A stretch of DNA of 64,000 bases from positions 1-64,000 of the forward strand of contig NZ_JAMPKJ010000008.1 in NCBI RefSeq assembly GCF_039962115.1, read 5' to 3'. Source of the DNA: Funiculus sociatus GB2-C1 (lineage in GTDB: Bacteria; Cyanobacteriota; Cyanobacteriia; Cyanobacteriales; FACHB-T130). The position numbers and the translations under genes were made by a program. Below are positions 40,971 to 61,118 of this stretch, in pieces (the stretch's first letter is position 1; every line of letters begins with the position of its first letter). The notes below the pieces were generated by a model. That model was not told the DNA's origin. It saw only the letters and a program-made list of their open reading frames with translations, and made no database searches.

Positions 40971-41000
40971 AAAACCGCGAAGGCGCGAAGGACGCGAAGA
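40971..41000 (+). repeat. Short repeat in the urtB-urtC gap
   Basis: ACCGCGAAGG is followed by CGCGAAGG and CGCGAAG, fragments of a degenerate dispersed repeat that fills the 40-base gap up to the urtC ATG. Confidence 0.5.
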
Positions 41001-42119
41001 ATGAGAAAGAAAGGAGGCCAGTTAGTATTAATAGAGGTAGGAGTGGTCGTGGCGATCGCTCTTATCTTAATCTTGGTGATGCCAGCGGTTCTTTCTGGGT
41101 TTCGTCTCACTTTGCTGGGGCGTTTTTTGGCGTTAGCGATCGCTGCTTTGGGTATTGATTTAATCTGGGGCTACACTGGTATGCTCAGTTTGGGGCATGG
41201 GGTGTTTTTTGCCCTTGGCGGTTACGCTTTGGGGATGCATTTGCAATTAGCGCCTTTGAATGGCGGTTTACCAGAATTTATGTCACTTTATGGGGTGACG
41301 GAGTTGCCTTGGTTTTGGCAGCCGTTTTACTCGCTTGGCTTGACTGCTTCGGCTGTAGTAATAATCCCAGCTATATTAGCCGCAATTTTAGGATATTTGG
41401 TATTTCGCAACCGCATTCGCGGCGTATACTTTTCGATTTTAACTCAAGCAGCAACAATTGTTTTTTTCAATTTCTTCAACGGGCAGCAAAAACTTTTTAA
41501 CGGCACCAATGGTTTAACTAACTTCAAAACTATTTTGGGGTCAACTGTCAGTGATAGTAAGACACAGCTGGTTTTATACACTCTCACAGTTTTGTTTTTA
41601 GTGGCATCTTACGTCCTGTGTCGGTGGTTGACAAAGGATCGTTTTGGACGCTTGCTAATTGCTATTCGAGATGATGAAAGCCGAGTGCGTTTTTCTGGCT
41701 ATAACCCTACCGGATACAAAGTGATTGTATTTGCAATTTCCGCTGCTTTAGCAGGAATTTCTGGTGCCTTGTTTACTATCCAAACAGGTTTAATTTCACC
41801 GAAAGCGATGGATATTGCTTTTTCGATTGAAATGGTAATTTGGGTAGCAGTGGGAGGTCGTGCCACTTTGGTAGGCGCAATATTAGGAACGCTGGTGGTC
41901 AACTTCGGCAAGACTTTCTTGAGCGAAGAATATCCGGATAGTTGGCTATTTTTCCAAGGTGCCTTATTCCTAATTGTGGTGACAGTTCTTCCCGATGGTT
42001 TGATTGGCTGGCTCCGTTATCAAGGTTTAGATAGAATGCGATCGCTCTTGGGATTCCGTAAACAAGTCGCCACATATCCTAGCCTGGAAGCAGAAATTAG
42101 CACTCAGAATGATGAGTAA
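41001..42119 (+). CDS. urtC: Urea ABC transporter permease UrtC
   Basis: LivM-type permease; 372 aa, about ten hydrophobic helices. Motifs are DLIWGYTGMLSLGHGVFFALGGYALGM and, near the end, FAISAALAGISGALFTIQTG with EMVIWVAVGGRATLVGAILG. The ATG directly follows a repeat-derived spacer. Confidence 0.95.
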   Translation: MRKKGGQLVLIEVGVVVAIALILILVMPAVLSGFRLTLLGRFLALAIAALGIDLIWGYTGMLSLGHGVFFALGGYALGMHLQLAPLNGGLPEFMSLYGVTELPWFWQPFYSLGLTASAVVIIPAILAAILGYLVFRNRIRGVYFSILTQAATIVFFNFFNGQQKLFNGTNGLTNFKTILGSTVSDSKTQLVLYTLTVLFLVASYVLCRWLTKDRFGRLLIAIRDDESRVRFSGYNPTGYKVIVFAISAALAGISGALFTIQTGLISPKAMDIAFSIEMVIWVAVGGRATLVGAILGTLVVNFGKTFLSEEYPDSWLFFQGALFLIVVTVLPDGLIGWLRYQGLDRMRSLLGFRKQVATYPSLEAEISTQNDE

Positions 42120-42217
42120 ATTTTTTACCGCAAAGGACAACAGAGGTAAGTGCAAAGTTATTGCTTATTCCCTGTCAACCTCTGCACCTTCCTTTGCATC
42201 AATTTGCGTTAAAAAAT

Positions 42218-42967
42218 ATGAACAATAAAATACTAGAAACTGAAAATGTAACTGTTAGTTTTGATGGATTTAAAGCACTAAACAACCTCAATTTCAACAT
42301 GGATGTTGGAGAATTGCGAGTGGTAATTGGCCCCAATGGTGCAGGTAAAACAACATTTCTGGATGTCATCACTGGCAAGGTAAAACCGACAGAAGGGCGA
42401 GTGCTATTCAAGGGGAGAAATGTTAAAGCTTTCTCAGAATATCAAATCGCCCGTTTGGGAATTGGCCGCAAATTCCAAACCCCCCGCATTTACTTGAATC
42501 TAACACCACGCGAAAATTTAGAAATCGCTTGCAATCACAATAAAAATGCTCTCTTTACCCTATTTAGTCGTCCCTCTAGTGCTGAACATAGCAAAGCGAT
42601 CGCGTTGCTAGAAACCATTGGGTTGACGGCTAAATCAGATATTCTTGCTGGGTTACTTTCTCACGGAGAAAAGCAACGTCTGGAAATTGGGATGTTAGTC
42701 GCTCAATCTCCTGATTTGTTGCTTGTTGATGAACCTGTGGCTGGGTTAACTGATGAAGAAACCGAAAACATTGGTAATTTACTTCTAGCTCTAGCTCAAA
42801 GTCATTCTATTCTTGTGATTGAGCATGATATGGAATTTGTCCGCCAAATTGCTCGTAAAGTTACGGTACTGCACGAGGGTTCAGTCTTGTGTGAAGGAAG
42901 CATTGAGGAAGTGCAGAATGATCCTCGCGTGATTGAAGTTTATTTGGGACAGCAATTAGTGTCTTGA
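42218..42967 (+). CDS. urtD: Urea ABC transporter ATP-binding protein UrtD
   Basis: LivG-type ATPase. 249 aa from the ATG at 42218 (MNNKILETENVTVSFDGFKAL). The Walker A is GPNGAGKT (residues 38-45), the signature LLSHGEKQRLEIG, and Walker B LLLVDEPVAGLT, followed by the H-loop LVIEHDMEFV. An open frame back to 42161 adds 19 non-family residues read from a repeat-like spacer and is rejected. Confidence 0.95.
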   Translation: MNNKILETENVTVSFDGFKALNNLNFNMDVGELRVVIGPNGAGKTTFLDVITGKVKPTEGRVLFKGRNVKAFSEYQIARLGIGRKFQTPRIYLNLTPRENLEIACNHNKNALFTLFSRPSSAEHSKAIALLETIGLTAKSDILAGLLSHGEKQRLEIGMLVAQSPDLLLVDEPVAGLTDEETENIGNLLLALAQSHSILVIEHDMEFVRQIARKVTVLHEGSVLCEGSIEEVQNDPRVIEVYLGQQLVS

Positions 42968-42985
42968 TGTTGAATTAAAATTCAA

Positions 42986-43684
42986 ATGCTGCAAATTACT
43001 GGTTTAAATGTTTACTACGGTGAAAGTCACATTCTCTGGGATGTAGATTTGAGCGTACCTGCGGGACAAATGGTTTGTCTAATTGGCCGCAATGGCGTTG
43101 GTAAAACTACTTTGCTCAAGACAATTATGGGGTTGATAAAGCCCCGCACAGGCACGATTACTTTTGCAGGTAATTTGATAAATGCCAACTCGACCGATCA
43201 AAGAGCAAAGCTGGGGATTGGCTATGTTCCCCAAGGACGGGAAATTATTCCGCGTTTGACAGTGAAGGAAAATCTATTGCTAGGTTTGGAAGCTAGACGC
43301 GATCGCGCACGCAGTCAAGAAATTCCAGAGGAAATCTTTGCCCTTTTTCCAGTCTTAAAATCCATGCTTTCGCGCATGGGTGGCGACTTGAGTGGAGGAC
43401 AACAACAACAACTAGCGATCGCACGCGCTTTGATGGGAAAACCGCAGTTACTCGTATTAGACGAACCCACCGAAGGCATCCAACCATCTATCATTTTGGA
43501 GATAGAAGCCGCAGTGCGCCGGATTGTTGAATCTACAGGAATTTCTGTTTTATTAGTAGAACAACACTTGCATTTTGTGCGCCAAGCAGATCGTTATTAT
43601 GCAATGCAAAAAGGCGGCATTGTTGCCTCTGGTTCTACTAGCGAATTGAGCCAAGATGTAATTGAGAGATTTCTCGCAGTGTAA
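42986..43684 (+). CDS. urtE: Urea ABC transporter ATP-binding protein UrtE
   Basis: LivF-type ATPase, 232 aa. Walker A GRNGVGKT (residues 34-41), the signature LSGGQQQQLAIARAL, Walker B LLVLDEPTEGIQ, and H-loop VLLVEQHLHFV. Last gene of the urtABCDE unit, 18 bases after urtD. Confidence 0.96.
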   Translation: MLQITGLNVYYGESHILWDVDLSVPAGQMVCLIGRNGVGKTTLLKTIMGLIKPRTGTITFAGNLINANSTDQRAKLGIGYVPQGREIIPRLTVKENLLLGLEARRDRARSQEIPEEIFALFPVLKSMLSRMGGDLSGGQQQQLAIARALMGKPQLLVLDEPTEGIQPSIILEIEAAVRRIVESTGISVLLVEQHLHFVRQADRYYAMQKGGIVASGSTSELSQDVIERFLAV

Positions 43685-48368: not shown

Positions 48369-49556
48369 CTAAGTTGGCAGAACATTCCGTTCAAAAATTG
48401 CCGTTGGAACCGCAATCGTACAACAAGCATTTGGAATATCTACAATCCCACTAATTCGACCTTCACAGGGTGCCGAACCCAACAACAAATACATCTGTTC
48501 GCCCGTGTAACCAAACTTTTTGAAGTACTCAATAGCATTTAAACAAGCCCGCCTATAAGCAACGTGAGCATCCAGGTAATATTGTTTACCTGTAAATTCG
48601 TCAACTGAAATTCCCTCAAACACTAAATACTCTGAGTAACGAGGTTCAACTGGCCCCGGCTTAAAAATAGGGTTAGTTAGCGCGTACTTTTCTACACCAC
48701 CCTTAATTAATTCCACATGAAGATCGATGTACCCAGCCATCTCAATTGCGCCACAAAATGAGATTTCGCCGTCACCTTGGGAAAAATGAATATCTCCCAT
48801 TGAAAGTTTCGCGCCTTCAACATAAACGGGGAAGTAAATCCGCGAACCTTTTGACAAATTTTTGATATCGCAGTTTCCACCATGTTCGCGGGGTGGAACA
48901 GTGCGTGCTGCTTCTTTCGCCACTCGGTCATATTCTGCACCTTTCAACGATCCAAGAATGGCATTTTTCGGGTTTGGTAATTCTGCCAAAGCAGGAATTT
49001 CCGGTTTCCAAACCGGGCCCCCACTTGCTACCAGTTCAGCTTCTCGTTTGTTCCACTTCGCTAACAGTTCGTGGGAGGGGGCGCAACCAATCAAACCAGG
49101 GTGTGGAATTCCCGCAAATTTCACATCGGGAATATGACGGGATTTTGTATAAATTCCTTGAATATCCCAGATTGCTTTCTGTGCTGTTGGATAGTGATCT
49201 GTGAGGAAACCGCCGCCATTTTCTCTGGCAAAAATACCAGTAAAACCCCATTCGTAATCGGGAAGTGTTCCCACGTCCAACAGGTCAACTACAAGAATAT
49301 CTCCCGGTTCGGCACCATTAACATGAATTGGCCCGCTCAAAACATGAACAACTGACAAATCTACATCTCGAACATCGTCAGAACTATCATTGTTTCCAAT
49401 TTGTCCGTCTGTCCAATCTTTGCATTCTATGCGGAATACATCGCCAGGATTAACAGAAACTACTGCCGGAATATCAGGATGCCAGCGATTATGACCAACG
49501 ATATCCTGTTCTGTAAATGGCTTTTTTAGGTCTACTTTGAAGAGAACTTCAGGCAT
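48369..49556 (-). CDS. fmdA: Formamidase (acetamidase/formamidase family)
   Basis: Hydrolyses formamide to formate and ammonia. 395 aa. Motifs of the family: MPEVLFKVDLKKPFTEQ at the start, HNRWHPDIPAVVSVNPGDVFRIECKDWTDGQIGNNDSSDDVRD, IHVNGAEPGDILVVDLLDVG, and SMGDIHFSQGDGEISFCGAIEMAG, which contains the conserved Asp/His and Glu-x-x-x-Cys region. Cytoplasmic, ammonia-yielding. The gene is preceded by a perfect 40-base palindrome and two overlapping NtcA-type sites, fitting nitrogen control. Confidence 0.92.
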   Translation of the reverse strand: MPEVLFKVDLKKPFTEQDIVGHNRWHPDIPAVVSVNPGDVFRIECKDWTDGQIGNNDSSDDVRDVDLSVVHVLSGPIHVNGAEPGDILVVDLLDVGTLPDYEWGFTGIFARENGGGFLTDHYPTAQKAIWDIQGIYTKSRHIPDVKFAGIPHPGLIGCAPSHELLAKWNKREAELVASGGPVWKPEIPALAELPNPKNAILGSLKGAEYDRVAKEAARTVPPREHGGNCDIKNLSKGSRIYFPVYVEGAKLSMGDIHFSQGDGEISFCGAIEMAGYIDLHVELIKGGVEKYALTNPIFKPGPVEPRYSEYLVFEGISVDEFTGKQYYLDAHVAYRRACLNAIEYFKKFGYTGEQMYLLLGSAPCEGRISGIVDIPNACCTIAVPTAIFERNVLPT

Positions 49557-49754: not shown

Positions 49755-49776
49755 GTAGTAAAGTATACAAATGTAC
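49755..49776. promoter_or_regulatory. Two overlapping NtcA-type palindromes in the fmdA-kinase gap
   Basis: GTA-N8-TAC at 49755-49768 and again at 49763-49776, overlapping by 6 bases. On the minus strand a TAN3T-type -10 lies at 49722-49727 (27 bases away) or 49732-49737 (17 from the nearer site and 25 from the farther one), so neither spacing is exactly canonical. The sites could act on fmdA, on the divergent kinase-ureD unit, or on both. Confidence 0.5.
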
Positions 49777-50180
49777 TTTATACTTTTTATATTAATAAAA
49801 GTAAACAAACTGAGTAAAAATATAAAGAAAAGGTTGTTTTTTCGCTAGTATGCAGGAAAATAGTTTAATAGAAAAAGGATTTTCGGTTAAAGTTAGTTTG
49901 CAGGGAGCCATAGTCCCAGTATTTTTGAAACCTTAATAAGAATATTTTTTGGCTAAACCTTGAGTTGGTATTAGGAAATCCGGATACTCAAGAGTATTGG
50001 CCGAAAAATTTTACCTAGTATGGCATAGAGAAACAAGATGGTTCACAATCGAGGAATCAGCGATCGCCATCGTTCGTTAAAATGCTATAACCACTTCACC
50101 CCTACAGAAGCTAAACTGTGGAAAGCCTTCAAAGATATTACCCCTCGTGCGACATCACGCGGCACCCAGTTAAATCGAAA
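49777..50180. other. AT-rich upstream region of the kinase-ureD unit
   Basis: No credible gene apart from an alternative upstream start of the kinase. AT-rich to about 49860, followed by mixed sequence. No further GTA-N8-TAC site was found. Confidence 0.4.
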
Positions 50181-52292
50181 ATGTTACAGCGGCTGCAAAA
50201 GCTTAAACCAAAGCTGCTAATTTTTACCTTTGGAGCATCATTACTGCCAGTCATGTTCCTGAGTGCTGTGGCGTGGCGATTTGTGCAGCAGCCGCTTGTT
50301 GACTTAGAAAAAACCAGGCTCGACGATCAAGTATTAGCCTTTCGCGGATACACAGCTGCTACTGAGAAAGGGTTACAAAATTTATCCTCAGGCTATGCGC
50401 TTTGGAGCGATCTGTTTAATGCCATTAGGCAGAAAGATCGGAATTGGATCAAAAAAGAGGTATCAGATCAACTCCTGCTGTCTACCGATGTAGATGCGGT
50501 GGAAGTGATTAGTAGTTCTGGAGAGGTTTTGGGAGAGCGGGGTGACGCTTTGCGGATTCCTACTGTGGTTGAACGAGTCAGAGCCTTAACCACAACTGGC
50601 AAGTTTGAGGCGGAATTGATTGATACTAGATCGAATCAAATGTTGCTGCTATCAGTAGCGCCCATCTACCGCAGCGACGCTACAGGTAAATCACCCGGAA
50701 CTTTGATTTTGGGTCAGAATTTAGATGAAGTGTGGTTGCGTAAATTTCTCAATTTCTCCCAACCAACTACTAAGCTAAAAATCATTTCTTTAGATGGTAA
50801 GCCGCTAGTTTCTAGCTATGCCCAAGCCAACATCGACTCTTGGGAAACGACTAATTTAAAGTCGCAGGTATTACCGCAAATTAAAAAAGGCGAACCAGTT
50901 TATCGAATTGAACCGGGGTCTGGTTTGAATACAATTTATGCTCCCATCACTTCGGGAGATAAACCTATAGCAATTGCCAAAATTCAGATTGTCTCCAAGT
51001 ATTTTAATCAAGCATCCATCAACCTCAGCCGCGCGATCGCGGTTGGGTTGGTTTTAGCTATTATGCTTTCAGTAGCGATCGCGCATCTACTTTACAAACA
51101 AATCGGCCAACCGATTATCCAACTAGCAGAACGTAGCAAAACCCTAGCTGCTGGCGATTTGAGTTCCCCAATTCCCGGTATTCATGCAGGTGGAGAACTC
51201 AGTCAACTTGCTAATGCCTATCAAGAAATGGCCCAAGCGCTCAAAACTCTAATTGACAACCTAGAGCATCGAGTTGCAGAACGCACTCAGGAACTAGAGC
51301 AAGCGCGTCAAACATTAGAAGACCGAGTGCATAAGCGAACGCACGAGCTTTGGAAAAAGAATTACCAATTGCAGCAAACTCAGGATCGACTAGAGCATCT
51401 TAACAAGGAATTAACTATCAAAGCTGAACAATTGAGCCAAGCCTTATCTCAGTTAAAAACAGCACAATCTCAACTGATTCAAACTGAAAAAATGTCTGGT
51501 TTAGGTCAATTAGTTGCGGGAATTGCTCACGAGTTTAACAATCCTATTAATTTTATCTACGCCAACCTAGTTTATGTCAATGGTTACACAGAAGAGTTAC
51601 TTGAACTCATAAACCTATACGAAAAACGCTACCCAGATCCGGAAATTAAAGAACATACAGAAGCAATTGATCTGGATTTTTTAACCACCGATCTGCCTAA
51701 AGTAATAGGTTCAATGAGGTCAGGCGCTGACCGAGTTCGGGAGATTGTCCAGTGCTTGCAAAACTTCTCCCGCCTCGACCAATCCGGTATCAAGCGTGTT
51801 AATATTCACGAGGGAATTGATAACACATTGCTGATTTTGCAGCATCGCTTACATTCTTCAGGCGACAGCATAGAAGGCGACAGTCTCAATATTGAAGTGA
51901 TTAAGCAATACGGTAACTTGCCATTAGTGGAATGTTATCCGGCGCAGCTAAATCAGGTCTTTATGAATATCCTTGTCAATGCCATTGATGAATTAAAAAA
52001 TCTCAAACCCCACCCTAATAAACAAATTACTATTAATACGGAAGTTGGGGAAAGAAACCAAATCTTAATTACAATCAAAGATAACGGTTCTGGTATTCCT
52101 TTAAAAATTCAGTCGAAGGTGTTTGACCCATTCTTCACAACAAAACCTGTTGGCAAAGGCGTAGGTTTAGGATTAACGGTTTCCTATGAGATTATCGAAC
52201 AGCATCAAGGAAAAATTAAAATAATTTCTGAACCAGGACAGGGAACAGAAGTAGTAATTGAGTTACCGCAGGAAATTAAACAATACAGTTGA
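50181..52292 (+). CDS. Sensor histidine kinase with extracytoplasmic CHASE4-like domain and HAMP
   Basis: 703 aa from ATG 50181 (an in-frame ATG at 50118 would add 21 residues). Membrane helix ~12-30, then an extracellular CHASE4-like sensor (FRGYTAATEKGLQNLSSGYALWSDLFNAI). A second membrane helix (AIAVGLVLAIMLSVAIAHLL), a HAMP domain, a coiled coil and the kinase core follow: phospho-His at 450 (AGIAHEFNNP), N box FMNILVNAIDEL, G1 DNGSGIP and G2 GKGVGLGLTVSY. No receiver domain. It ends 34 bases before ureD, so kinase and ureD are likely cotranscribed. Close paralog of the kinase at 54926-56617. Confidence 0.88.
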   Translation: MLQRLQKLKPKLLIFTFGASLLPVMFLSAVAWRFVQQPLVDLEKTRLDDQVLAFRGYTAATEKGLQNLSSGYALWSDLFNAIRQKDRNWIKKEVSDQLLLSTDVDAVEVISSSGEVLGERGDALRIPTVVERVRALTTTGKFEAELIDTRSNQMLLLSVAPIYRSDATGKSPGTLILGQNLDEVWLRKFLNFSQPTTKLKIISLDGKPLVSSYAQANIDSWETTNLKSQVLPQIKKGEPVYRIEPGSGLNTIYAPITSGDKPIAIAKIQIVSKYFNQASINLSRAIAVGLVLAIMLSVAIAHLLYKQIGQPIIQLAERSKTLAAGDLSSPIPGIHAGGELSQLANAYQEMAQALKTLIDNLEHRVAERTQELEQARQTLEDRVHKRTHELWKKNYQLQQTQDRLEHLNKELTIKAEQLSQALSQLKTAQSQLIQTEKMSGLGQLVAGIAHEFNNPINFIYANLVYVNGYTEELLELINLYEKRYPDPEIKEHTEAIDLDFLTTDLPKVIGSMRSGADRVREIVQCLQNFSRLDQSGIKRVNIHEGIDNTLLILQHRLHSSGDSIEGDSLNIEVIKQYGNLPLVECYPAQLNQVFMNILVNAIDELKNLKPHPNKQITINTEVGERNQILITIKDNGSGIPLKIQSKVFDPFFTTKPVGKGVGLGLTVSYEIIEQHQGKIKIISEPGQGTEVVIELPQEIKQYS

Positions 52293-52326
52293 TAATATTA
52301 AATCTATCAGCAATCAGCAATTAACA

Positions 52327-53151
52327 ATGAACGCTGGATGGCATGGCAAACTTAACTTAGTGTACGCTCAACGGGGAGGTACTACCCAGCTAATCCACTC
52401 TCAACATCAAGCGCCCCTGAAGGTGCAGCGACCGTTTTATCCTGAAGGAGAAGAGGTTTGTCATAGTGTGATTTTGCATACAGCTGGGGGAGTTGTGGGA
52501 GGCGATCGCTTATCCATCAACTTGCACCTCGAAGACAATGCACGAACCTTAATCACCACAGCAGCCGCAGGTAAAATTTATCGCAGTAATGGGCTACAGG
52601 CAAGACAAAATATTGAAATTGAGGTAAATGCTGGTGCTGGTGTGGAGTGGCTACCGCAGGAAACTATTATTTTTGATGGTGCGATTTATCGACAAGACTT
52701 GAGAGTAGAATTAGCTCTAGGAGCAACCTGGCTCGGTTGGGAGATTACGCGGTTTGGTCGCAGTGCTAGGGGAGAAAGATTTTGCTCTGGAGAGTGGCGA
52801 TCGCATACCGAAATCTGGCAGCAAGGACACCCCCTCTGGATCGAACGGCTTTGGCTACCCGCAAGCGAAGAAATCTTCAACAGTCCTCACGGCTTGGCAG
52901 GACAGCCAGTTGTCGCCAGTCTCGCTTGGGTGGGACAATCGGTGTCATCGGAAATTGTAGAAAAGGCGCGAAACTTGTGGCAAGGACAACCCCACCAAGC
53001 AGGTGTCACCCGGCTACCGCTTGGATTATTGTGTCGCTATCGTGGTAGTTCTACCGCCCAGGTGCGAAAATGGTTTACAGACATCTGGCATTTGCTGCGT
53101 CTATCTTTTAGCGAACGTCCTGCCTGTATACCTAGAGTTTGGCAGATTTGA
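52327..53151 (+). CDS. ureD: Urease accessory protein UreD (UreH)
   Basis: Scaffold that binds apo-urease and receives nickel from UreE and UreG. 274 aa from ATG 52327 (MNAGWHGKLNLVYAQRGGTTQL), the UreD N-terminus. The open frame back to 52258 overlaps the kinase end and is rejected. Motifs seen: PFYPEGEEVCHSVILHTAGGVVGGDRLSI, KIYRSNGLQARQNIEIEV and WLPQETIIFDGA. It is far from ureEFG (52 kb versus 36 kb). Confidence 0.95.
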   Translation: MNAGWHGKLNLVYAQRGGTTQLIHSQHQAPLKVQRPFYPEGEEVCHSVILHTAGGVVGGDRLSINLHLEDNARTLITTAAAGKIYRSNGLQARQNIEIEVNAGAGVEWLPQETIIFDGAIYRQDLRVELALGATWLGWEITRFGRSARGERFCSGEWRSHTEIWQQGHPLWIERLWLPASEEIFNSPHGLAGQPVVASLAWVGQSVSSEIVEKARNLWQGQPHQAGVTRLPLGLLCRYRGSSTAQVRKWFTDIWHLLRLSFSERPACIPRVWQI

Positions 53152-53199
53152 ACGAACCACTTCAGGCATAGAGAACGCAGAGGAGTTTGAGGGAAATTA

Positions 53200-53502
53200 A
53201 TGCAACTCACGCCACAGGAAAAGGACAAGTTATTGATTTTTACGGCTGCCTTGTTAGCAGAACGCCGCAAGGAAAGAGGCTTAAAGTTGAATTATCCGGA
53301 AGCTATTGCCTATATTTCTGCGGCAATTTTGGAAGGTGCCAGAGATGGACGCACTGTTGCAGATTTAATGAGTTATGGCACAACGCTGCTAACGCGAGAA
53401 GATGTGATGGAAGGTGTATCAGAAATGGTGCATGAAGTGCAGGTGGAAGCAACATTTCCTGATGGCACAAAACTGGTTACAGTTCACAATCCAATTTCTT
53501 AG
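53200..53502 (+). CDS. ureA: Urease gamma subunit
   Basis: 100 aa structural subunit of nickel urease: [50 protein letters not shown], then the strongly conserved [30 protein letters not shown]. The TAG is followed at once by the AGAAGG ribosome site of the next gene. A gap of 48 bases from ureD contains a repeat-like AACGCAGAGG sequence. Confidence 0.98.
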
Positions 53503-53511
53503 AAGGTGTCT

Positions 53512-54294
53512 GTGAGTAATTTAAGAAGCGATTTATATTCAGCCTTCTACTATACAGATCCGGCTCCCATAGTTGAGTTTCTGCAATGGCTAGCTGTTTC
53601 CTATAATGTATCAAATCCGCCACAAATTCTAGATATCGGCTGTGGCCCAGGCCGAATGCTGCCTGAGTTTGCCAAATTAGGCTGGGAAACAACAGGAATG
53701 GAACCCGATCCAGATTATTTTTTCCAAGCTACTCAAGTAGCAGAATCTTGGGAAAACGTAACCGTACAGCCTGGTGGATTTGGTGATATTGATGCAGAAA
53801 AAAAATTCGATATTATTGCCGCCATTAATGGCCCTTTTTACTACTTGCTAAAGCTTGAAGACAGAATTGATGCCTTACAGCGAATGTTTCAATCGCTGAA
53901 ACCTGGGGGTATTATGTTCCTGGCTATGGCTAATTTTTTGTGGATTCTTAAGAATTTTAAACCACAAATTAAGAGGACAACAACTGTCAACGGCAAAAAA
54001 ATTCAACTAGTCGTGAATCACTCTATAGACTTTCATAATAGCATTTTTATTGCTGAAGATATTTTCAGCAATGATATAGAAGAAGAAACGTTTAACATTT
54101 TTAACGACAATCCTGAAGAAATAGTTGACCTTGTTGAAGTTAGTAAGTTTGCCATAATTCAACCTTCTGAGTTGCTGTATTTTGTTCAAAAGACAGGTTT
54201 TAAAAATATCCAAACTTATAACAGTTACAAGGCTAGAAAAAGCGAAAAATTAACGAGTTCGCATATGATGCTTTCTGCTCAAAAACCGATATAG
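53512..54294 (+). CDS. SAM-dependent class I methyltransferase inserted between ureA and ureB
   Basis: 260 aa, predicted Rossmann methyltransferase. Motif I is LDIGCGPGRMLPEF, followed by GMEPDP (acidic loop) and IAAINGPFYYLLKLEDRIDALQRMFQSLKPGGIMFLAM. The GTG at 53512 is preferred to the GTG at 53506 because AGAAGG (53501-53506) sits at ideal spacing. It follows ureA by 9 bases, so it is cotranscribed. Substrate unknown; such genes are not part of the usual urease set. Confidence 0.85.
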   Translation: MSNLRSDLYSAFYYTDPAPIVEFLQWLAVSYNVSNPPQILDIGCGPGRMLPEFAKLGWETTGMEPDPDYFFQATQVAESWENVTVQPGGFGDIDAEKKFDIIAAINGPFYYLLKLEDRIDALQRMFQSLKPGGIMFLAMANFLWILKNFKPQIKRTTTVNGKKIQLVVNHSIDFHNSIFIAEDIFSNDIEEETFNIFNDNPEEIVDLVEVSKFAIIQPSELLYFVQKTGFKNIQTYNSYKARKSEKLTSSHMMLSAQKPI

Positions 54295-54925
54295 AAAATT
54301 TGTAGCGGTAAGTTGAGGGCGTGGCGTTTGAGCAAAAAAAACATGCCAGCTATTTTTCAGTAAATTATATTAGTTAAATTCACCTTTGTGATGTCTACGC
54401 ATAACATACCTCCAACCTGCTGAAAAGGGGGTAATCAACTGACTTTTGTAGACATAAACTGGAACCGTTTCAGGGGTAATGCTTTGTCTTGAATTTCATA
54501 TTATTTAAGAACTGTTTTTTAGAAGTTATTGCTAACAAATAAATTAGCCTTGCTATAGTAAATTGACGCGATTTCAAGGGGAATATTTGTAAAAAAAGGG
54601 TAAATGGAAATTAATGCGCCTTATGAGACGGTAGAAATAAGCGTAGCAAATACGAGTAATGCTCTCACCCCAGAGATTTGAAAAAAATCCGGAATAATCT
54701 GCTGACGGAGGAATATCTGATAAAAGTGTTACAGAAATGATACATAGGGTAAACGCATAAGCAACATTCACCGCTAAACTAAATTAGTCAGAACACATAT
54801 AATACCTATTTGCTAGAAATCTTCTAGCGTTACATCTGTGCAGGGTGCTAGGAAAGTTTCTAATAGGGAAGGCAATTTTTTGTATTGTTCTTTACGTATC
54901 GAATACTGCACCGGAATAATTACCC
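54295..54925. other. Gene-free gap between the methyltransferase and the second kinase
   Basis: 631 bases without a credible gene; the only ORFs are short and unlike known proteins. It contains a 16-base sequence also found before ureG (54317-54332) and inverted ATGTCTAC/GTAGACAT (54391-54398 and 54448-54455). The gap is large for an operon, so ureB-C and the kinase probably have their own promoter here. Confidence 0.4.
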
Positions 54926-56617
54926 ATGAATTTTTTTCTAATTAGAGGGTTGCGCTCTGTCTGGCTCAATTTGCCAATTCGCTGCCGAGGAACTATCATC
55001 CTGGCTATTCCCGTGAGCTGTCTGCTTTTTTCGCTTGGCCCGTTGTCATGGCTGCAAAAGAATACAGTGCAGGCTCATTACCATGTCCAACAAGCGCAGC
55101 AGATACGTTTTGAAACTCATCGCCTGCTCAATGCTTTGGTGGATGCAGAAACAGGTATTCGAGGATACAGTCTCACTCGTCAGCCGGAATTTTTAGAACC
55201 TTATTCAGCAGCGATCGCAACTATTCCTAAATCATTGGACAAACTAAGCGATCGCGTTAAGTATAAAGAGCAGCGTCAACGACTCCAGAAGATTGAAATT
55301 CAGGCGCAGCAACGGATGGAGATGTTAAAGAACACTCTTAACGCTATCAACGATGAAACAACCTCCCCATCTACCCTGAAGAACTTGCTTTTCCAAGGCA
55401 AATCCTTAATGGATGAGACTCGTCGGCAAATCAGTATTTTTCAGGAAGAGGAAGAGCGTCTGCTAAAAGAACGCAACCAGCTTTTAAAGCGCCAGCAGAG
55501 CCTCACTCAGATGACACTGGGTTTATCCGCCATCATTGGCATTATTGGCGCAATTACAGCAGCTTTTCTGTTTGACCGTCTCGATCGAGAACTAAAATTT
55601 CGGGAAGCTGATTTACGCGAACGAGCGATCGCATCTCAAAACCAAGCCGAACAGCTTAATATAACTTTGCAAGAACTACAAGAGGCTCAAGCTCGACTGC
55701 TTCAAACCGACCAACTAATTCAGACAGAAAAGATGTCCAGCCTCGGTCAAATGATTGCAGGCGTTGCTCATGAAATCAACAACCCAGTTACATTTATTCA
55801 CGGCAATTTATCCCACGTCGCTCAATACACCCAAGATTTACTCGACCTTTTGGAACTCTACCAGCGCTATTATGACCAATCAAATCCTGAGATTATCGAG
55901 CTGGCAGAGGCAATTGATTTAGAATTCCTTGCCGAGGATTTACCCAAAATTCTCATATCAATGAAAGTTGGTGCTAATCGTATCCGACAAATCGTTTTGT
56001 CATTGCAAAGCTTCTCCCGGCGAAATGAAACTATTCGGAGAGTTGTTGATATCCACCAAGGCATTGACAGCACCCTACTAATTTTGCAGCATCGTTTGAA
56101 CGCTACCGCCTCGCGTCCCTCTATTGAAATTGTTAAAGAGTATGGCACACTCCCCTTTGTAGAGTGTTACGCCGGATACTTAAACCAAGCGTTTATGAAT
56201 ATTTTAAGTAATGCGATTGATGCTGTTGAGCAATACGAGGTGGAGTTTTCCCCAGACCAAATGAAGCAGCATCCCAGGCGAATCGTGATTCATACACAAT
56301 TGAATCAGGCTAATAGAGACCCTGATGGCGATCGCGTAGCGATTCGGATTATTGATAATGGGCCTGGAATACCAGAAGAGATTAGAGGACGCATATTTGA
56401 CCCGTTTTTCACAACCAAAGCAGTAGGACAGGGGGTGGGATTGGGGCTATCCACTAGCTACCAAATTGTGGTAAATAAGCATGGCGGGGAGCTAAAGTGT
56501 TTTAGCAAACCTGGACAAGGTACAGAATTCTGGATTGAAATCCCAGTGACACCTCCGGCAAATTTATCTGTTGACGATATTAGCTCGTTACATCATTTAC
56601 AAACGTCGTCCATGTAG
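54926..56617 (+). CDS. Sensor histidine kinase with CHASE3 domain
   Basis: 563 aa. Membrane helix ~25-42, then a CHASE3 sensor (RFETHRLLNALVDAETGIRGYSLTRQPEFLEPYSAA), a second helix (SAIIGIIGAITAAFLF), a coiled coil (LREAD...LQEAQARLLQ) and the kinase core: phospho-His 282 in AGVAHEINNP, N box FMNILSNAIDAV, G1 DNGPGIP and G2 GQGVGLGLSTSYQI. The core is closely similar to that of the kinase before ureD (shared QLIQTEKMS and DSTLLILQHRL type segments). No receiver domain. It ends 38 bases before ureB, implying cotranscription with ureBC. Confidence 0.9.
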   Translation: MNFFLIRGLRSVWLNLPIRCRGTIILAIPVSCLLFSLGPLSWLQKNTVQAHYHVQQAQQIRFETHRLLNALVDAETGIRGYSLTRQPEFLEPYSAAIATIPKSLDKLSDRVKYKEQRQRLQKIEIQAQQRMEMLKNTLNAINDETTSPSTLKNLLFQGKSLMDETRRQISIFQEEEERLLKERNQLLKRQQSLTQMTLGLSAIIGIIGAITAAFLFDRLDRELKFREADLRERAIASQNQAEQLNITLQELQEAQARLLQTDQLIQTEKMSSLGQMIAGVAHEINNPVTFIHGNLSHVAQYTQDLLDLLELYQRYYDQSNPEIIELAEAIDLEFLAEDLPKILISMKVGANRIRQIVLSLQSFSRRNETIRRVVDIHQGIDSTLLILQHRLNATASRPSIEIVKEYGTLPFVECYAGYLNQAFMNILSNAIDAVEQYEVEFSPDQMKQHPRRIVIHTQLNQANRDPDGDRVAIRIIDNGPGIPEEIRGRIFDPFFTTKAVGQGVGLGLSTSYQIVVNKHGGELKCFSKPGQGTEFWIEIPVTPPANLSVDDISSLHHLQTSSM

Positions 56618-56655
56618 CTTTGCAAATAAAAAACCTTAAGTGATTGGAGTTTAAT

Positions 56656-56961
56656 ATGATTCCAGGTGAAATCATTGTACAAGACGGAGAAATTGAACTC
56701 AATGCAGGCCGTCCCACCTTCAGAGTAATAATTGCTAATTCAGGCGATCGCCCGATTCAAATTGGTTCCCATTATCACTTTTTTGAAGTAAATGAAGCCT
56801 TAGAATTTGATAGAGAACAAACCAAAGGAATGCGGCTTAATATCCCAGCCGGGACAGCAGTACGCTTTGAACCAGGAGATGAAAAAGAAGTAGAATTAGT
56901 ACCCTTTGCAGGTAGCCGTCAAGTCTACGGCTTCAATGCCAGAATCAACGGTTCGCTATAA
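56656..56961 (+). CDS. ureB: Urease beta subunit
   Basis: 101 aa: [19 protein letters not shown], then [25 protein letters not shown] and the typical [21 protein letters not shown] ribosome site GGAG (56646-56649) with 6-base spacing supports the ATG at 56656; the TTG at 56644 is rejected. Separated from ureA by the methyltransferase and the kinase. Confidence 0.97.
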
Positions 56962-57066
56962 ACTTATAAAACGCTTTCGTAACGCCAAAGATATCGGTAA
57001 GAAACTCCGCGTACCTTTGCGTTAACCTCCCTTGTACCTTTGTGTTAAAAATAAAAGGAGTGAAGC

Positions 57067-58797
57067 ATGAGTTACCGCATGGATCGCCGCGCCTACGCCG
57101 AAACCTTTGGCCCCACAGTAGGCGATCGCGTTCGTCTCGCTGACACAGAATTATTTATCGAAGTCGAACAAGACTTCACCACCTACGGGGATGAAGTGAA
57201 ATTTGGCGGCGGCAAAGTTATCAGAGACGGGATGGGACAATCCCCAATTTCTAACGCTGCTGGTGCTGTAGATTTAGTAATAACCAACGCCTTAATTCTA
57301 GATTGGTGGGGAATTGTTAAAGCCGATATTGGCATTAAAGACGGGCGAATTTTCAAAATTGGTAAAGCGGGAAATCCCTATATTCAAGACAACATAGATA
57401 TTATTATTGGCCCCGGAACCGAAGCACTTGCTGGCGAGGGGATGATTCTCACGGCTGGCGGAATTGACAGCCACATTCACTTTATTTGTCCGCAACAAAT
57501 TGAGGTAGCGATCGCATCCGGCATCACCACCATGATCGGCGGCGGTACTGGCCCCGCTACGGGTACAAATGCTACCACCTGCACCCCTGGCCCCTGGAAC
57601 ATTTACAGGATGTTACAAGCCGCCGATGCCTTTCCAATTAACCTGGGTTTCTTGGGCAAAGGGAACAGCAGCCAGCCGGAAGGATTGGTAGAGCAAGTTT
57701 TAGCGGGAGCGATGGGCTTGAAGCTGCACGAAGACTGGGGAACCACACCAGCAACAATTGATACCTGCTTAAGCGTTGCTGATGAATATGATGTACAAGT
57801 AGCAATTCATACTGACACCTTAAACGAAGCTGGTTTTGTGGAAACTACCATCAATGCTTTTAAAAATCGCGTTATCCACACATACCACACGGAAGGAGCT
57901 GGGGGAGGTCACGCCCCGGACATCATCAAAGTTTGCGGCGAAGCCAACGTACTACCTTCTTCCACCAATCCTACACGTCCTTACACCGTCAACACCCTAA
58001 ATGAACACCTAGATATGCTGATGGTCTGCCATCACCTCGATCCAAGCATTCCCGAAGATGTCGCCTTTGCCGAGTCCCGAATTCGGCGCGAGACGATTGC
58101 GGCTGAGGATATTCTGCACGATTTAGGCGCATTTAGCATGATTGCCTCAGATTCACAGGCGATGGGACGAGTGGGTGAGGTGATTATTCGCACATGGCAG
58201 ACGGCGCACAAGATGAAAGTACAGCGGGGAAACCTCTCTCCAACCCCCCTTCTACAAGGAGAAGCTCAAGAAAGGGCAGATAATTTTCGGGCAAAGAGAT
58301 ATGTAGCAAAGTACACTATAAACCCGGCGATCGCTCACGGAATTTCTCAGCACGTCGGTTCAGTAGAAGTGGGGAAACTGGCTGATTTGTGCCTCTGGCG
58401 ACCAGCATTTTTTGGTGTGAAACCAGAGATGGTGATTAAAGGGGGAGCGATCGCATACTCGCAGATGGGAGATGCCAATGCTAGTATCCCCACCCCGCAA
58501 CCAGTGCATATGCGTCCGATGTTTGCCAGTTTTGGGGGTGCGATCGCTGCTACCTCCCTCACCTTTATTTCCCAAGCTGCCTTAGAAAAAAACATCCCCA
58601 CTCAACTTGGTTTACAAAAGCCAGCAGTTGCGGTAAGTGGTACGCGGCAATTGAGCAAGCGGGACATGAAGCTTAATGATGCTCTCCCTCGTATAGAAGT
58701 AGACCCTGAAACCTACGAAGTTAGAGCCGATGGAGAATTACTCACTTGCGAACCCGCAACCATCCTACCCTTAGCGCAACGCTACTTTTTATTTTGA
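57067..58797 (+). CDS. ureC: Urease alpha (catalytic) subunit
   Basis: Catalytic subunit hydrolysing urea to ammonia and carbamate at a two-nickel centre. All residues are present: His136 and His138 (DSHIHF), carbamylated Lys219 ([10 protein letters not shown]), His248 and His274 as nickel ligands, His322 or His323 (MVCHHLD) in the flap, and Asp362 (SDSQAMG). 576 aa, about 8 more than usual: residues ~389-404 ([16 protein letters not shown]) form an extra loop before DNFRAKRY, encoded by a repeat-like DNA segment (58231-58278). The catalytic core is untouched, so it should be active. Confidence 0.98.
58231..58278 (+). repeat. Repeat-like in-frame insertion in ureC
   Basis: The DNA reads AACCTCTCTCCAACCCCCCT followed by a CCTT-CTAC-AAGG mini-hairpin, resembling the palindromic CCTCTCC...AAGGAG repeats common between cyanobacterial genes. 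It encodes about 9-10 residues beyond the usual loop length. Confidence 0.5.
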
Positions 58798-59978: not shown

Positions 59979-61118
59979 ATGAAGAATCATTCGAGTATCA
60001 CTCAAGCCTCTAAAACTGACCGTATTCTAGTTGTGGATGATTCTCCGGATAATTTGTTTCTCGTTCAAACCATTCTGGAAGAAGAGGGATATCAAATTAC
60101 ATTAGCGGAGAATGGTCGTTCTGCCCTAGCTGAAATCGAACAAGGCCCACCAGACTTAGTATTGTTGGACGTGATGATGCCAGGGATGGATGGCTATGAA
60201 GTCACCAAACGAGTACGAGACAATACTAAGTTGCCGTTTATTCCGATTTTACTAATCACCGCTCACGATCACGCCAGTGTCGTAGAGGGATTAGATACAG
60301 GCGCAGATGATTTTATTCGTAAACCAGTGCAAGTAGATGAATTGCTGGCACGGGTGCGATCGCTACTGCGGCTAAAACACAGTGTAGACGAACGCGACCA
60401 AATTGCTCGTCAGCGAGAAGATTTTGTCTCCTGGCTCACCCATGACTTGCGGACACCGATAGTCGCAGCTGAGAGGATGCTGGCTTTATTTCAGCAAGGA
60501 GCATTGGGAGAACTCGCGCCAGGGATGCAGGAAGCAGTCGTTACAATGGCTCGTAGCAACCGCAACTTACTGGCAATGGTCAACACCTTGCTAGAAGTTT
60601 ATCGCTATGAAGCAGGTCGTAAGACCCTGACTTTTTCCCCCATTGATCTAAAGCAACTGCTTCAGGAAGTTATTGAAGAACTTACTCCCTTAGCTGGGGA
60701 AAAAAATTTGTCTTTGGTGCTAGATGTAGGAGATAAGGACGCTCATAATAAACTTAATAGCAAAGTGGTAGGAGATCGCCTGGAACTTCACCGAGTTTTT
60801 ACCAACTTAATTGGAAATGCCATCAAGTTTACAGATAAAGGCTCAGTCGTTGTCCGAATGGTGCCAGATACTAACATTGTTGACTCCGATACTCCTTCCC
60901 TCATTATGGAAGTCCAAGACACTGGCCCTGGTATCCCAGCAGAAGACCAAGCAGTATTATTTGAGCGATTTCGTCAAGGAAACCACAAGCGTTCCGGTAG
61001 TGGTTTAGGGCTACATTTATCTCGTCGGATTGTGGAAGCTCATCAAGGTGCAATTGAGGTTAAATCAGAGTTGGGGAAAGGTAGTTTATTTAGGATTCGC
61101 CTTCCTGTTCAACACTGA
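59979..61118 (+). CDS. Response-regulator/histidine-kinase fusion (receiver N-terminal)
   Basis: 379 aa, soluble. The N-terminal receiver has Asp64 (VLLDVMMPGMDG), the acidic pair in VVDDS and Lys115 (IRKP). The HisKA helix has His155 in SWLTHDLRTP, and the HATPase domain has N box FTNLIGNAIKFTD, G1 DTGPGIP and G2 GSGLGLHLSRRI. No membrane helices. This order (REC-HisKA-HATPase) is a common cyanobacterial design in which the receiver takes phosphate from another kinase. The nearby membrane kinases without receivers are possible partners. Confidence 0.9.
   Translation: MKNHSSITQASKTDRILVVDDSPDNLFLVQTILEEEGYQITLAENGRSALAEIEQGPPDLVLLDVMMPGMDGYEVTKRVRDNTKLPFIPILLITAHDHASVVEGLDTGADDFIRKPVQVDELLARVRSLLRLKHSVDERDQIARQREDFVSWLTHDLRTPIVAAERMLALFQQGALGELAPGMQEAVVTMARSNRNLLAMVNTLLEVYRYEAGRKTLTFSPIDLKQLLQEVIEELTPLAGEKNLSLVLDVGDKDAHNKLNSKVVGDRLELHRVFTNLIGNAIKFTDKGSVVVRMVPDTNIVDSDTPSLIMEVQDTGPGIPAEDQAVLFERFRQGNHKRSGSGLGLHLSRRIVEAHQGAIEVKSELGKGSLFRIRLPVQH

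Follow-up and report, generated by a model that had tools for sequence, protein, structure and literature searches.

The window analysed here is a stretch of 64,000 nucleotides from Funiculus sociatus GB2-C1 (contig C8 of a 6.47-Mb genome, G000), in which the urease (ure) genes are interleaved with two sensor histidine kinases, HK1 and HK2, and a methyltransferase, MT. The ure operon of this cyanobacterial order is probably a recurrent landing site for unrelated genes, with HK1 standing apart as a member of a sensor group linked to the urea transporter genes (urt). The product of such an insertion is seen in a second genome of the same species (G001), where a chimeric ureB has been rebuilt downstream of a new gene and a truncated ureB stub remains upstream of it. 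An earlier note on this DNA had proposed a different reading, in which the kinases form a phosphorelay built into the urease locus.

The genes and fragments of the locus, as identified by Pfam or by profile and alignment, are as follows.

50181..52292, + strand (possible GTG start at 50118): HK1, a CHASE4-HAMP-HisKA-HATPase sensor kinase of the urt-linked ortholog group (Pfam)
52327..53151, + strand: ureD, urease accessory protein (PF01774)
53200..53502, + strand: ureA, urease gamma subunit (PF00547)
53512..54294, + strand: MT, a class I S-adenosylmethionine methyltransferase of a ure-linked passenger family (PF13649)
54557..54660, + strand: decayed 5' fragment of ureB, a scar (profile, 12.5 bits; DNA alignment to the start of ureB of G005)
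54722..54769, + strand: possible decayed 3' fragment of ureA, weak (3.1 bits)
54926..56617, + strand: HK2, a CHASE3-HisKA-HATPase sensor kinase, a single-species passenger (Pfam)
56656..56961, + strand: ureB, urease beta subunit (PF00699), with the HIP1 octamer GCGATCGC at 56744-56751
57067..58797, + strand: ureC, urease alpha subunit (PF00449 and PF01979)
59979..61118, + strand: RRHK, a receiver-HisKA-HATPase protein, widespread in the order (Pfam)

All seven genes of the order HK1-ureD-ureA-MT-HK2-ureB-ureC were confirmed on one strand, and the gaps of 34, 48, 9 and 38 bp reported by the earlier note are correct against the gene coordinates; the two junctions that it left without numbers measure 631 bp (MT-HK2) and 105 bp (ureB-ureC). 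The distance from ureA to ureB is about 3.15 kb, and ureA, ureB and ureC are not contiguous as in a standard ureDABC operon. The sensors named in the note were also recovered by Pfam (CHASE4 with HAMP and HATPase in HK1, CHASE3 with HATPase in HK2), as were the lack of a receiver in either kinase and the fusion of Response_reg, HisKA and HATPase in RRHK. HisKA falls slightly below the curated Pfam cut-off in both HK1 and HK2. In HK1 of the window it scores 25.3 bits against a cut-off of 26.9, and the HK1 ortholog of G003 passes with 29.8 bits, so that the HK1 domain set of sensor, HAMP, HisKA and HATPase is complete, with HisKA marginal in the window protein.

The survey comprised 65 ure loci of the same order, in which 256 of 291 genomes have a ureB match; 60 of the loci were hand-picked for contig margin from the matches listed and the other five belong to the family of the window. 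A gap of more than 300 bp separates ureA from ureB in 23 of 53 loci and ureB from ureC in 27 of 51 (12 of the 65 loci have no usable ureA-ureB pair in the piece and 14 no usable ureB-ureC pair). Of the 40 loci whose piece contains all three genes, 32 have at least one interruption. The loci share genera, so these counts are not counts of independent events. The premise of the earlier note, that ureDABC are normally contiguous, fails for this order. In records from outside the photosynthetic cyanobacteria (one Sericytochromatia record included) gaps of this size were counted in 13 of 56 loci at ureA|ureB and 5 of 57 at ureB|ureC, and in picocyanobacterial-type records in none of eight at either junction.

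To describe what fills the gaps, 101 open reading frames (ORFs) from all 75 loci (named ones included) were grouped into 48 clusters. Representatives of 30 clusters were scanned, and a few more later; the remaining 18, mostly small, lie outside that representative scan. The passengers are mixed: an AAA ATPase with a DUF4276 partner (PADLOC HEC-01A/B), glycosyltransferase 61, DJ-1/PfpI, DUF1349, Coq4, several methyltransferases, Uma2, PDDEXK_3, P450, an MNT/HepT-type pair, GST and cupin. Four clusters (AAA-DUF4276, DJ-1/PfpI, MT and a Uma2-like protein) occur at both junctions in different genomes. The AAA ATPase followed by the DUF4276-type protein lies at ureB|ureC in loci L131, L135 and L137 and at ureA|ureB in L143, L146 and L148, that is, at different junctions in different families, and both pairs that were scanned (L137 and L146) gave matches to HEC-01A/B, a candidate defence pair. 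In L124 and L139 an MNT-type nucleotidyltransferase and a HepT-like protein (toxin-antitoxin like) lie between ureD and ureA. In L166 and L167 (9625-10014) there is a receiver-domain match about 0.3 kb past ureB, with ureC outside the fetched piece.

MT has matches at E ≤ 1e-40 in five of the 291 genomes, each near ureB, and is therefore regarded as a ure-linked passenger. Both genomes of this species have it in the ureA|ureB gap, and G024 and G071 have it in the ureB|ureC gap; in G088, placed by ureB alone, it is about 1.4 kb downstream of that gene. The linkage may reflect shared function or shared history. A 29-residue remnant of MT stands directly before ureB in G004 and G005 (L119 8884-8970 and L120 8929-9015), beside an intact DJ-1/PfpI gene. 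The ratio of nonsynonymous to synonymous substitution rates between G000 and G001 is 0.16 for HK1, 0.06 for MT, 0.13 for HK2, 0.13 for RRHK and 0.04 for ureC. HK1, MT and HK2 are thus under purifying selection, and the passengers MT and HK2 are accordingly functional genes and not debris.

The outcome of one insertion can be seen in the conspecific genome. G001 has the same gene order as the window, with 96-99% protein identity for HK1, ureD, ureA, MT, HK2, ureC and RRHK, and carries in addition a gene of 595 amino acids (GT595) between HK2 and ureB that is absent from the window order. A truncated ureB stub lies directly after HK2 (L005 8664-8798), and a complete ureB follows the extra gene; its first ~31 codons are strongly unlike the ureB of the window and the rest is nearly identical to it. 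In a seven-row alignment, the stub tracks the window ureB until a 12-bp interval with the HIP1 octamer and then runs into degenerate ureB-like sequence, and the new ureB switches from foreign to resident sequence between HIP1 and ~45 bp beyond. GT595, the one ORF of the insert, has no Pfam hit, and its reading as a known mobile gene was rejected; there is consequently no recognised recombinase in the insert, and no integrase, transposase or other recombinase was found among the window passengers, MT and HK2. Matches to GT595 occur in 16 of the 291 genomes including G001 (best other, 44%), and where both places are listed it lies within 20 kb of ureB in G001 only, several genomes having no ureB listed.

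What looks like an older trace is present in the window, in the gap between MT and HK2. The ureB 5' fragment at 54557-54660 was scored with a profile built without this species, which gave no ureB hits in 2000 shuffles, and it breaks near the same codon as the G001 stub (one clear event and one decayed stub). With this fragment in place the interleaving looks like insertion history, and HK2 would have entered by the same kind of event as the G001 insert. Divergence between the two genomes is 14% in the MT-HK2 gap versus 2.9% in the ureB-ureC gap and 6.7% in the gap between HK1 and the upstream FmdA/AmdA gene. A stub search over 203 gap and flank stretches (328 kb) from the 75 loci gave six hits, namely four real ure genes of L018 and L171 and the two stubs reported here; three shuffled sets gave none. 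Other irregular ureB copies were noted. In G020 (contig C1, ~1101038-1103874) some 2.5 kb separates the part of ureB that covers profile positions 1-69 from the part that covers 70-97, which looks like the result of an insertion into the gene; in G031 (contig C60, 2970-3877) a complete ureB is followed on the same strand by a partial copy (profile 26-93). The ureB of G047 is frameshifted, and G237 has, on a different contig, a second copy that contains a stop.

HK2 looks like a late single-species arrival. Its kinase core is of a very common type, with 153 first-look candidates in its own genome, and among the matches listed for 148 genomes, with nine candidates scored per genome, the full-length protein was found in G000 and G001 only; the next near-full-length matches are 44-46% identical. 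A survey for kinases between ureA and ureB, which the earlier note had suggested as a check, returned the second conspecific genome and no other species among the 53 loci with both genes. The note had also called the two kinases paralogous. Their cores are 52% identical; against eight of ten comparison kinases HK1 is 55-59% and HK2 60-63% identical (48-49% for the remaining two), the ten being the best HK2 matches, a biased choice that favours HK2 but not HK1. In a kinase-core tree HK2 lies outside the HK1 clade and is not sister to HK1. The 'pair' is thus two members of a very large family and not mutual nearest relatives, and the term paralogous has little meaning here. A single NtcA-like site lies at 54882-54895, ~30 bp before the HK2 start codon, and may be there by chance.

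HK1 is a different case, with ties to urea genes. Two further features lie upstream of it in the window.

40980..43681, + strand: urtC, urtD and urtE, the end of the urea ATP-binding cassette (ABC) transporter operon (tblastn with UrtC, UrtD and UrtE of G003, 73%, 85% and 86% identity)
48369..49556, - strand: FmdA/AmdA formamidase-acetamidase, divergent from HK1 (Pfam PF03069, 629 bits)

UrtC/D/E were identified through NCBIfam models applied to the queries from G003 and G005, those of G003 passing the cut-offs of TIGR03408, TIGR03411 and TIGR03410, respectively. The FmdA/AmdA gene repeatedly adjoins ureD in relatives. HK1 orthologs at E ≤ 1e-170 were found in 10 of the 291 genomes, from seven genera and two families, and are recovered in the core tree as a single, moderately supported clade (81/91). 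All ten have HK1 on the strand of urtE and downstream of it, six of them within 0.5 kb (~0.2-0.45 kb in G004, G005, G058, G124, G138 and G151). The distance is 4.3 kb in G003, 6.1 kb in G001 and 6.5 kb in G000; in G036 it is 2.1 kb, and a further kinase gene lies in the interval. In this species HK1 ends 34 bp before ureD. No ure genes are present in the fetched HK1 stretches of G003, G124, G138 and G151; G003 has no ureB or ureC match at all, though its contig ends ~230 bp past HK1. In G177 (L248) an HK1-like gene follows urtE (60%, residues 13-375) and falls below the ortholog threshold.

A kinase is the next gene after urtE in eight of 30 urtE loci, three of HK1 type and five of a second type; the 30 loci are the best 30 of 224 genomes with a query from family f1, and at least three of them are shortened by contig ends. 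Kinases of the second type have HAMP and a different sensor of ~220 residues. They lie directly after urtE in families f14 and f32 and also, in eight loci of family f2, on the strand opposite to ureD and 2.6-5 kb upstream of it. The f2, f14 and f32 sensors are related to each other, no Pfam sensor domain was found in the five second-type kinases scanned, and no relation to the HK1 sensor was detectable (hhalign probability 1%; best blastp E of 0.04). In L158 (640-2433 and 2454-4568) there are tandem kinases, one of each sensor type, with urtE upstream in the same stretch of G036. HK1 is, from its sequence context, a candidate urea/amide-linked sensor kinase tied to urt and not to ure. A recurring kinase beside the urea importer is a real lead and the surviving part of the idea in the earlier note, with urt rather than ure as its partner. 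Among the matches listed in a literature search, no kinase beside urease or urt was described, and 'kinase' occurs a single time in the main text of PMC6737895, where it refers to another gene.

We consider it possible, though on balance doubtful, that HK1 alone is a urea or amide sensor coupled to the Urt transporter, sensing UrtA or the transport state, with the other kinases irrelevant. The constant position downstream of urtE argues for this, as does the use of the same position by a different sensor type in f14 and f32. Two overlapping NtcA-like sites (GTAN8TAC) at 49755-49776, in the divergent region between FmdA and HK1, point the same way; the window has 16 such sites versus 8.3 expected, and two of 100 shuffles reach 16, which makes them a lead only. 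The sites may, however, be due to chance, the ligand role is a proposal from sequence, and NtcA and PII already control urea transport according to the available part of PMC6737895, so that no extra sensor is required. Scans for sigma-70 promoters and terminators were at chance level (17 versus 16.7 and 8 versus 9.1) and so carry no information on whether HK2 is transcribed separately. A wider proposal appears rather unlikely to us: that a cyanobacterial family of urtE-linked kinases with two unrelated sensor types senses urea or amides through Urt, that HK1 was captured into the urease transcription unit and that HK2 was a later addition to ureA|ureB through exchange at ureB. If it were true, urea sensing would come on top of the NtcA/PII control already known for urea uptake.

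The phosphorelay of the earlier note, in which each of the two kinases has its own cue and passes phosphate to RRHK in response to urea or nickel, is improbable, and a single relay built into the ure locus is not supported. HK1, HK2 and RRHK do lie near each other in the same direction, are domain-complete and under purifying selection, and at least 19 genomes, read by eye among the matches listed, have RRHK and ureB on one contig and no more than 15 kb apart. The tie of HK1 to urea genes likewise stands. The parts are, however, not conserved together: HK2 is confined to the two genomes of one species (of 148, among the matches listed), HK1 occurs in 10 of 291 genomes and RRHK in 162 of 291 (E ≤ 1e-130). 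RRHK, the only nearby receiver examined for HK1, is not specific to this locus, and in several genomes it is far from ureB though on the same contig (e.g. G067, G099, G102, G273 and G280). The four HK1 stretches near urt that contain no ure gene, and the separate positions of HK1 and HK2 in the core tree, also argue against a relay.

The position of the G001 junctions raises a further alternative, that a site-specific system uses the HIP1 palindrome (GGCGATCGCC) within ureB to integrate gene cassettes; we regard this as very doubtful. The left junction of the fresh insertion falls in the 12-bp interval that holds HIP1 and the right one between HIP1 and ~45 bp beyond, and HIP1 is found at nucleotide 89 of ureB in 43 of 72 ureB genes. 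The available part of Elhai (2015; PMC4390886) cites work tying this palindrome to (plasmid) recombination. The octamer is frequent in general, with 80 copies in the window versus 0.6 expected from base composition, and it could be no more than the longest stretch that diverged ureB genes have in common. Against such a system, the insert is one ORF with no recognised recombinase, and no other isolated ureB stubs were seen in the 75 loci or in the 13 other genomes with two ureB matches. HIP1 lies within 20 bp of some boundary in only three of 11 other discontinuities between G000 and G001 (~190 kb aligned), the probability of meeting it by chance in a 40-bp stretch being 0.044. HIP1 as a general breakpoint was therefore rejected as unsupported, on a small, hand-picked sample of discontinuities from which one small break on C1 and a tandem-repeat stretch of C48 were excluded. 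An assembly artefact, with kinase and stub misjoined, is extremely improbable: both conspecific genomes are draft assemblies in many contigs, but they share the order HK1-ureD-ureA-MT-HK2 at the protein identities given above, with reading frames under purifying selection.

Several observations weigh against the landing-site reading. Just one fresh insertion was caught, with no further ureB stub in the 203 stretches of the 75 loci and no isolated 5' stub in the other 13 survey genomes of the 14 (G001 included) that have two ureB matches. The older ureB stub is weak when taken alone, at 12.5 bits, and its copy in G001 scores 0.5 bits; the ureA 3' fragment is weaker still, with 3.1 bits in the window and 3.7 bits in the G001 copy, below the 5.5 bits of the single ureA hit among 2000 shuffles. 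Other named cyanobacterial loci have gaps of more than 300 bp in none of five at ureA|ureB and in four of six at ureB|ureC; together with the picocyanobacterial-type records, this indicates that a large ureA|ureB gap marks part of the order and not all cyanobacteria. MT, DJ-1/PfpI, DUF1349, Coq4 and the AAA-DUF4276 pair turn up repeatedly in ure loci across families, and some passengers may therefore have a functional link to urease. For HK1, the orthologs come from two families only, and their placement may reflect one ancestral arrangement.

We nevertheless favour a recurrent landing site, for which the following course of events is proposed. Incoming DNA with a passenger beside a ureB 5' end would recombine with the resident ureB. 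The exchange would detach the resident 5' end, which then decays as a stub, and downstream a complete ureB would be rebuilt as a chimera. The simplest route would be homologous exchange at ureB, with a circle or linear DNA as donor. The older stub suggests the same event for HK2, which like MT is a functional passenger between ureA and ureB. HK1 belongs to a conserved kinase group encoded behind urt and in this species came to lie directly before ureD. Its most likely role is that of a membrane-bound sensor tuning the use of nitrogen from urea or amides and signalling to some response regulator, and HK2 and RRHK need play no part in this signalling. The arrangement in the window is of an ordinary kind, in which a permissive operon takes up genes, and the one fresh example is instructive. 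The conspecific pair shows a single foreign gene entering a working operon without destroying it, as the target was rebuilt as a chimera and a stub was left; this offers a test of how operons gain members. The kinase group kept beside urtE in two families offers a specific gene to knock out.

The arrangement can be compared with several known systems. Both kinases share standard domains with CHASE4-HAMP and CHASE3 sensor histidine kinases; the point of difference is that the HK1 orthologs are linked to urea-transporter genes. Cyanobacterial ure genes are often scattered and urt genes clustered, and in Nostoc PCC 7120 an unknown gene splits ureDAB from ureC (PMC6737895, available part). The window resembles such interrupted clusters in having a passenger gene within the structural genes. 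It differs from those in the available part of that paper in having two ureA|ureB passengers, one of them a sensor kinase, together with a ureB scar, and in that a conspecific genome carries a further insertion. A literature search on interrupted ure operons did not, among the matches listed, return a description of this arrangement. Proteobacterial ure operons (Pseudomonas, Rhizobium and others) also have ureA|ureB gaps of more than 300 bp, with at least ten of the 13 cases from Pseudomonas. In size, the Pseudomonas gaps among those listed are uniform (1.07-1.2 kb), whereas those of the cyanobacterial order are varied. In homology-facilitated illegitimate recombination, one homologous anchor brings in an adjacent foreign gene and the recipient end is duplicated or truncated. 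The G001 event resembles this process in its anchor, its foreign gene and its truncated recipient end. Since both junctions lie within ureB sequence, a Campbell-type single crossover with a circular donor would explain the event just as well.

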